Assembly: GCA_020846935.1 (NCBI GenBank)
Contig: JADLCY010000011.1
Coordinates: forward strand, 310,001-374,000
DNA length: 64,000 nt
Direction: 5' to 3'
Origin: Gemmatimonadaceae bacterium
GTDB taxonomy: Bacteria; Gemmatimonadota; Gemmatimonadetes; Gemmatimonadales; Gemmatimonadaceae
The notes beneath the pieces were generated by a model. It saw nothing but the letters and a program-made list of their open reading frames with translations. It had not been told where the DNA came from and made no database searches. This document shows positions 54,629 to 56,230 of this stretch, piece after piece; position 1 is the stretch's first letter, and each line of letters starts with the position of its first letter. A program made the position numbers and the translations under genes.

Positions 54629-55639
54629 CTACAGCGACGCGACGGCCGCGCTGGCGGTGCGTCGTGCGAGAAAGGCCGCACGCTGGCCGCTCCGGTTGTC
54701 GCCCTGCGCAAGGAACGACAACAGCGCGTCGGCCAGCTCGTTCCCGGTCTGGTACCTGTCGTCGGCCGCCTTGGCCAGGCAGCGCATGACGATGTTCGAC
54801 AACTCCGACGGCACGCGCGAGTCGACGACGTCCGGCGCGACGGCCTGCTCGTGCACCTGCTTGTAGCCCACCGAATACGAGTCGGCCCCGTCAAACGGAG
54901 GAAAGCCGAGCACCATTTCGTAGAGCATCACGCCCACGGCGTAGAGATCGCTGCGGCCGTCGACCATCTTGCCCATGGCCTGCTCGGGCGACATGTAGTG
55001 CGGCGTGCCCATCGCCCGGCCCATGCGTGTGAGGCGGCCGTGAAAGCGGGCCGTGGCAATGCCGAAGTCGGTGAGCTGCGCGTGCCCGTCTTCGTCGAAG
55101 AGCACGTTGTCCGGCTTTACGTCGCGGTGGACGATGCCTCGCCGGTGCGCGTAGTCGAGCGCGGTCGCCACCTGCGCGCAGATGGAGGCCGCGGACGCGG
55201 GGGCCACCGTCTTGTCCCGGATCAGCACATCGGCCAGCGAACCACCGGCCAGGTACGGCATCACGAGAAAGACGAGGTCGTTCAGTTCGGTGAAGTCGAG
55301 GATGGGGCAGATGTTCGGGTGATACAACTGCGCGCTGGCCTCAGCCTCGCGGCGAAACCGCTCGCGCATCTCCGGATCTTTGGCGAGGTGCTGGTGGAGG
55401 ACCTTGATCACGAGCGGCCGATCGAGCTTGGCGTGTTGCGCGTAGTACACGTGCGCCATGCCGCCGCTGCCCATGCGACGCGTCACACGATACCGGCCAC
55501 CGGATGAGCGGCGCAGGTTCGTGAGCTCGCTGTCCGGCTGCTCCATCGGCGGGCCCGAGACCTCGGGCAGCGGCGCCGCGCATCGCCCGCATTGCACCGC
55601 GCGGGTACGGTTCCACGTGCCGCACTCGGGACAGAACAC
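54629..55639 (-). CDS. Ser/Thr protein kinase with N-terminal zinc ribbon
   Basis: 336 residues; start is GTG at 55639, with GGAGG inside the end of the preceding gene. N-terminal CPECGTWNRTRAVQCGRC is a zinc ribbon. Hanks-type kinase domain: MGSGGMAHVYYA (P-loop), VIKVL (Lys), HRDVKPDNVLF (catalytic loop), LTDFGIA (DFG), GTPHYMSPEQ. No membrane helix or sensor domain follows, so it is cytoplasmic, with the ribbon as the only extra module. Directly downstream of a GvpL/F-like gene with no gap. Confidence 0.92.
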   Translation of the reverse strand: MFCPECGTWNRTRAVQCGRCAAPLPEVSGPPMEQPDSELTNLRRSSGGRYRVTRRMGSGGMAHVYYAQHAKLDRPLVIKVLHQHLAKDPEMRERFRREAEASAQLYHPNICPILDFTELNDLVFLVMPYLAGGSLADVLIRDKTVAPASAASICAQVATALDYAHRRGIVHRDVKPDNVLFDEDGHAQLTDFGIATARFHGRLTRMGRAMGTPHYMSPEQAMGKMVDGRSDLYAVGVMLYEMVLGFPPFDGADSYSVGYKQVHEQAVAPDVVDSRVPSELSNIVMRCLAKAADDRYQTGNELADALLSFLAQGDNRSGQRAAFLARRTASAAVASL

Positions 55640-56230
55640 CTAGCCTCCGAAGTGCAGACGCACGAAGTCGTATGCGGGCCAGGGTCCCGACTGCTCGATC
55701 GTCACGGCTTCCGAACGCTGCTGTTCGTCGCGCACCGCATCGACAAACGCTGACCACTTCTCACGATCGACGAGGAACGAGCTGTCGGCGACCCGTGCAC
55801 CGTGCTCGGCGGCCTCGGACCGTGATACCGTCGCCACGGCGTGGCGGGTGAGCACGCGCATGGAGTCAAAGACGGCCGCTTCGAAGTCGGGGCCCGCGGC
55901 ATCGACACGAGCGACCATGCGTACGCGAGCGGCGGCTTTGTCGTGAACAAACTCCAGGCCCTCGCGGAGGGCGACATAGTGCAGCTCCATCCAGCGCACG
56001 AGCGCGTCGCGCGAGCGGAACACCGCACCAAATGGCACCGGCACCACGGGCTGGTTCGTGAACGCTCCCTCGACCACCGCGCGGTACTCGCCAATCGCGA
56101 GCGACGTGGCGTCCACGCGCGCGTAGGGCACGCGCCTGACGAGTGCGATCAGGTCGCGGAGCGACACGACGTCCACCTCCAACGACCGCGACAGCGTACC
56201 TGCGTCACGGGCCACGACGGCAAAGAGCAT
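55640..56230 (-). CDS. GvpL/GvpF-family-like protein (orphan)
   Basis: 196 residues from ATG 56230 (MLFAVVARDAG), which has an AAGG 6 nt upstream; the longer frame to 56548 is discarded. VVPVPFGAVFRSRDALVRWMEL and the C-terminal SSFLVDREKWSAFVDAV ... IEQSGPWPAYDFV strongly resemble gas-vesicle GvpL/GvpF, where 'LPxRFGxxF' and 'TGPWPPYSF' are diagnostic. No gvpA or other gas-vesicle gene is in the window, so it may serve another role. Its TAG stop is immediately followed by the kinase GTG, implying translational coupling. Confidence 0.72.
   Translation of the reverse strand: MLFAVVARDAGTLSRSLEVDVVSLRDLIALVRRVPYARVDATSLAIGEYRAVVEGAFTNQPVVPVPFGAVFRSRDALVRWMELHYVALREGLEFVHDKAAARVRMVARVDAAGPDFEAAVFDSMRVLTRHAVATVSRSEAAEHGARVADSSFLVDREKWSAFVDAVRDEQQRSEAVTIEQSGPWPAYDFVRLHFGG

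Follow-up and report, generated by a model that had tools for sequence, protein, structure and literature searches.

A short, conserved branch of the GvpF/L family in Gemmatimonadota, paired with a Ser/Thr kinase gene in Gemmatimonadaceae

The window is a stretch of 64,000 nucleotides from the genome of a Gemmatimonadaceae bacterium. It contains a gene for a short protein of the GvpF/L family, referred to here as the orphan, which is followed directly by a gene for a Ser/Thr protein kinase. The two genes lie between conserved neighbours, an HDAC-family deacetylase gene upstream and a replication helicase gene downstream, and a DCC1-like gene on the opposite strand separates the kinase from the helicase (Table 1). 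The helicase is presumably PriA-like, a name that comes from reading the sequence rather than from a family scan, and its gene is called priA below. Genomes, loci and genera are labelled G, L and g, and host families f, with f1 being the Gemmatimonadaceae.

Table 1. Positions in the window of the orphan gene, the kinase gene, their junction and the flanking genes
Feature	Position	Strand	Evidence
HDAC-family deacetylase gene, conserved upstream neighbour	56620..57546	-	PF00850, 284 bits; synteny
Orphan GvpF/L-family protein, 196 aa; short subfamily with the central segment missing	55640..56230	-	PF06386, 92.6 bits; AlphaFold2 model, pLDDT 93.3; PDB GvpF, Z 19.6; tree
Junction: end of orphan with GGAGG in the last codons, TAG, then GTG	55637..55650	-	Stop touches start
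Ser/Thr protein kinase, 336 aa; GTG start; N-terminal zinc ribbon	54629..55639	-	PF00069, 179.9 bits; residues read from sequence
DCC1-like thiol-disulfide oxidoreductase gene, between kinase and priA	53957..54562	+	PF04134, 87.5 bits
PriA-like (presumed) replication helicase gene, conserved downstream neighbour	51582..53912	-	Synteny

The orphan reading frame starts with the ATG at 56230 and ends with a TAG codon. Its match to the Pfam profile GvpL_GvpF (PF06386) has an E-value of 5e-26 and exceeds the curated cut-off of 23.6 bits. Both signatures by which a preliminary description had called the protein GvpL/F-like are present: FGxxF is F67-G-A-V-F71, and GPWPxYxFV is GPWPAYDFV at residues 182-190. 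Against NF045778, the NCBI model for gas-vesicle GvpL, the orphan scores 23.7 bits, which is under the equivalog cut-off of 200; this cut-off is also missed by all six scanned GvpF/L proteins of Gemmatimonadota gas-vesicle clusters (41-101 bits).

The host genome (G000; 4.5 Mb in 15 contigs) contains PF06386 once, because the two rows returned by the profile search are two halves of one ORF. The GvpA family (PF00741) was found neither in this genome nor in three genus mates, and the same search is positive in 44 of 395 Gemmatimonadota genomes. Similarly, GvpK was absent from the host genome in a search that was positive in 5 of 12 chosen genomes, none of them in the host's genus. Because the same searches find GvpA and GvpK in relatives, these absences are meaningful. 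GvpG was also not detected in the host genome, by a search whose control scored only below the cut-off. The gene had been described as an orphan for want of gas-vesicle genes nearby, and with respect to a second PF06386 gene and detectable GvpA, GvpK and GvpG this holds for the genome as a whole.

An AlphaFold2 model of the orphan built with 62 sequences has a pTM of 0.87. When the model was compared with known structures by using Foldseek and VIA-align, GvpF ranked first, with 6l5d at Z 19.6 (192 residues aligned, 2.4 Å) and a second GvpF structure, 4qsg, at Z 17.9. The matches that follow, at about Z 10, are confined to the second half of the orphan, which is ferredoxin-like. Ribosomal protein S6 and ACT-type domains also matched (Z about 8-10), which was taken to reflect common ferredoxin-like arrangements. 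A phmmer search of the PDB with the single orphan protein did not return GvpF; a profile search did. Judged from the model, the orphan shares the two-domain fold of cyanobacterial GvpF and PF06386 over its whole length. It also has P64, L153, F189 and the GPWPxYxFV motif in common with them.

The orphan differs from GvpF and PF06386 in several ways. Alignment of 81 full-length orphans with 38 cluster GvpF/L proteins shows that 33 central columns after residue 110 are missing in the orphans. (The 81 are from a collection of 91, of which 10 with lengths outside 170-230 were excluded.) All 81 orphans carry P66, R102 and D188, three positions at which the cluster proteins mostly have S/R, G/S/A/N and N/H, respectively. 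The orphan also belongs to a separate clade and a different locus, in a genome without GvpA. Two features of a functional gas-vesicle accessory protein are lacking, namely a GvpA-type shell gene in the same genome and the central inter-domain segment.

In a tree of 59 proteins, the 21 orphans all fall together on one side of a branch supported at 100/99. The GvpF/L proteins of Gemmatimonadota gas-vesicle clusters fall into three types, each of which is one clade. Types 1 and 2 join proteins of Chlorobium and Bacillaceae, and type 3 joins Chlorobium. The root was not inferred, so the position of the orphan clade outside these types means that it is apart, not that it is older. Derivation of the orphan from any cluster type was rejected, because the orphans are a single clade apart from all three. 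A profile built from the 21 orphans separates short orphans from cluster proteins; the cluster types are of the same family, and type 1 scores best against this profile (126-144 bits), but all are longer, lie in other clades and adjoin GvpA-type genes, except for extra type-1 copies in genus g20. Within the orphan clade, host families f1, f4, f7 and f9 form subclades and f6 is not one group. These family subclades fit vertical descent.

The orphan gene is under purifying selection. By the NG86 method, dN/dS for the window orphan is 0.133 against its nearest relative (L053) and 0.186 against L033, and it ranges from 0.052 to 0.343 over 13 pairs. In four genomes of genus g5 (L189, L190, L191 and L193), the orphan is truncated to about 114 residues, with little of the second domain left. 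The short form retains a PPYDYVRM-like end and the coupling to the kinase, and its dN/dS of 0.085-0.20 indicates that it is constrained too.

The kinase has the hallmarks of Hanks-type Ser/Thr kinases, with a kinase domain in which K79, HRD at 171-173 and DFG at 191-193 (including D173 and D191) can be read from the sequence. In domain and catalytic residues, it resembles PknB-type bacterial Ser/Thr kinases. In contrast to these, it has no matched PASTA repeats and instead carries the zinc ribbon, with cysteines C3, C6, C17 and C20. It scores 336 bits against the PASTA-domain kinase model NF033483 (equivalog cut-off 450), over the kinase part only. The kinase tail was considered as an orphan-specific docking site and rejected, because a similar tail with R-x-A-R is found in many kinases without an orphan.

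No nucleotides separate the TAG of the orphan from the GTG of the kinase, so the preliminary description was correct about the coordinates, strand and touching codons of this junction. It had also called the genes fused in an operon; they are abutting and tightly coupled, but they are two separate reading frames and not one protein. The GGAGG just 5' of the GTG lies within the codons of the orphan's C-terminal Gly-Gly and is, from its sequence and position, a plausible candidate ribosome-binding site for the kinase. Such a site is clear in the window and in the nearest relatives but was rejected as a general feature, since a loose pattern finds it in 16 of 58 junctions. In 45 of the 58 junctions that were measured, the gap from stop to start is between -1 and +5 nt, and frames that touch or nearly touch favour balanced co-production of orphan and kinase. 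Scanning for promoters and terminators yielded a single promoter-like and a single terminator-like site, neither of which carries weight.

To determine how widely the orphan occurs, 395 Gemmatimonadota genomes were sampled, many of them incomplete and 140 of them Gemmatimonadaceae. PF06386 is found in 98. The orphan is found in 88, which comprise 60 of the 140 Gemmatimonadaceae genomes and 28 outside this family; this count, tallied by hand, includes one gene that is divided between two contigs and the four truncated genes of g5. A scan of named species genomes with the orphan-motif pattern gave 71 loci, all in Gemmatimonadota or unnamed bacteria except five. The five are in Chlorobiaceae and Bacillaceae, and each is accompanied by several GvpF/L genes and a GvpA-type gene. 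In most carriers, the orphan occupies one locus between the HDAC-family gene and priA. In the inspected loci outside Gemmatimonadaceae, the gene before the orphan is a Peptidase_M24 gene, and the one after it is priA or an enolase-superfamily gene. The Peptidase_M24 gene overlaps or abuts the orphan start in L036 (5681-6892), L048 (5679-6914) and L035 (5365-6780), with the family confirmed by Pfam for L036 only.

The kinase gene is directly downstream of the orphan and on the same strand in all 60 Gemmatimonadaceae carriers, counting the split gene once. The preliminary description had proposed that this pairing be sought in relatives, and it had taken a complete gas-vesicle cluster elsewhere in the genome, together with an unconserved pair, to argue against its reading; within the family the pair is conserved, and the host genome has no such cluster. 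Outside Gemmatimonadaceae, the kinase is beside the orphan in 0 of 24 usable loci, and five further loci end too soon. Among 66 named loci, the kinase is present in 44 by a 300-bit rule and absent in 16, and in 6 the contig is too short; one locus counted among the 16 (L073) has the kinase at 296 bits, just under the threshold. Locus L116, of Roseisolibacter sp. H3M3-2, has both the orphan and the kinase. No kinase ortholog was found in the 28 orphan-bearing genomes outside the family, where the best score is 216 bits versus 366-763 for the listed Gemmatimonadaceae orthologs. Conversely, all 20 genomes sampled from the 80 Gemmatimonadaceae genomes without an orphan retain the kinase between the HDAC-family gene and priA. 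In 14 of these 20, a CorA-like gene ends at most 200 nt from the kinase (one was identified by Pfam, the others by eye from a shared C-terminal motif). Because the kinase is kept without the orphan and the orphan is found without the kinase, neither needs the other, and the pair is a lineage-specific arrangement. That the kinase accounts for the orphan gene, in the form suggested earlier, is therefore not supported.

Physical partnership between the orphan and the kinase is quite possible, if not to be presumed. One form that it could take is that the orphan serves specifically the neighbouring kinase, as its substrate or activator. The unbroken adjacency within the family and the overlapping or nearly overlapping frames would suit this arrangement, as would position 73, which is serine or threonine in 50 of 61 kinase-linked rows versus 5 of 29 others. 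However, the kinase persists without the orphan and the orphan exists without the kinase, and the g5 orphan remains coupled in its truncated form. Also, Ser73 lies just before a helix (74-83) in the AlphaFold2 model. Helices commonly begin with S, T, D, N or G, so a helix cap suffices to explain the enrichment and no phosphorylation site is needed. No conserved phospho-acceptor stands out: Ser73 is the only serine or threonine position enriched in the kinase-linked group at a level of at least 80 percent, and as the sole such difference between the groups, at a helix start, it was rejected as a conserved phospho-site. A dedicated substrate or activator is thus possible but rather doubtful. Alternately, the adjacency might be plain conservation of gene order, and the orphan might work with proteins other than the kinase, such as the Peptidase_M24 neighbour outside the family. 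The neighbours do vary between families within a constant frame of HDAC-family gene and priA. Yet touching or overlapping frames in most of the Gemmatimonadaceae favour co-production, and gene order alone is an explanation that we can entertain only with some doubt.

Another possibility is that the orphan is a gas-vesicle accessory protein that is encoded away from the cluster and that lingers after vesicle loss in genomes like that of the host. Within Gemmatimonadaceae, the orphan is present in 28 of 30 GvpA-positive versus 32 of 110 GvpA-negative genomes (p 1e-10), and the two GvpA-positive genomes without it have a completeness of 88 percent (G228) and 86 percent (G332). Of the genera, 11 have both genes, 9 have the orphan only, none has GvpA only and 11 have neither (Fisher p 0.002). 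In genera g3 (G010 and G380), g5 (G021 and G023) and g13 (G112), the gas-vesicle cluster is about 10-17 kb from the orphan where the two share a contig (L217, L218, L220, L222 and L225); in G079, the distance is about 2.2 Mb. Moreover, in genus g20 the orphan's operon holds a full-length GvpF-type gene, between the enolase-superfamily gene and priA (G176: L159 4926-10599, L219 1-2855), with the cluster genes on another contig. The arrangement is similar in G143, G254 and G312; in G176, a sensor histidine kinase gene was also read in the insertion.

Against the accessory explanation, 54 of the 88 orphan carriers lack GvpA and 34 have it, and ten GvpA-positive genomes lack the orphan, including 8 of the 14 outside Gemmatimonadaceae. 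Low dN/dS is also seen in GvpA-negative genomes, that of the host included. On a tree of the HDAC, kinase and PriA proteins of Gemmatimonadaceae, which is a quick tree with many half-empty rows, 4 changes are counted for the orphan and 9 for GvpA, with 2 starred independent pairs and 4 in all. With only 2 to 4 independent pairs, the association cannot be separated from ancestry. The co-occurrence is therefore a hint of a residual link to gas vesicles, and an accessory role is unlikely. That the orphan is a functionless, decaying leftover of a lost gas-vesicle cluster is very improbable: it is missing from 11 of 31 sampled Gemmatimonadaceae genera and truncated in g5, but this explanation was rejected on the basis of dN/dS (0.05-0.34 in the 13 pairs, and low in the truncated form as well) and of a tree that places the orphan in none of the three cluster types, and the locus is conserved across several families.

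The orphan probably belongs to a vertically inherited Gemmatimonadota side branch of the GvpF/L family that has given up a role in gas-vesicle assembly or never had one. A repurposed family member, one of the ideas in the preliminary description, is the best reading, given the clade of its own, the purifying selection and the lack of GvpA in most carriers. In the consulted portions of four papers (PMC7688916, PMC9501494, PMC10903477, PMC11445434), GvpF and GvpL figure as chaperones or as proteins of vesicle assembly; GvpA is bound by GvpF, which is believed to act as its chaperone, and GvpL has many binding partners among the Gvp proteins. The orphan keeps the GvpF fold and motif in a genome with no detectable shell protein, so the simplest proposal is that it serves some other client as an adaptor or chaperone. 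It would be small and soluble, and it might bind a hydrophobic or exposed segment of the client through the same two-domain body that GvpF is believed to use in holding GvpA. Later, in Gemmatimonadaceae, the production of the orphan would have become tied to that of the zinc-ribbon Ser/Thr kinase, for which it might act as a client-presenting adaptor, regulator or substrate.

A broader proposal, which is speculative and on balance unlikely, is that the GvpF/L fold has a general adaptor use independent of gas vesicles and that in Gemmatimonadaceae the orphan is a co-translated kinase partner that feeds or tunes phospho-signalling. Because the cluster types group across phyla and the orphan branch is apart from all of them, this branch may even have retained a function that predates gas-vesicle assembly or runs parallel to it. 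If a conserved and selected GvpF/L branch indeed exists without vesicles, then the fold has another client, and a PF06386 match by itself does not show that a genome encodes gas vesicles. The locus would also offer a simple system for finding what GvpF/L proteins bind, with one adaptor, one kinase and no shell protein. No paper on the orphan branch or on the kinase pair was found in the open-licence literature, as represented mostly by titles and the starts of abstracts.

Some further observations concern gas-vesicle clusters and the rest of the window. Clusters L226 (5093-7219 and 10123-12363) and L217 (3205-5508) have a sensor histidine kinase gene beside GvpA-type genes, and L226 also has a Get3/ArsA-like ATPase. 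In the window, a GC-rich 20-bp tandem repeat with 7.2 copies is located at 49668-49817, beside a membrane protein gene that was named CcdA-like by eye. A 94-bp repeat is present in two copies at 48353-48539.
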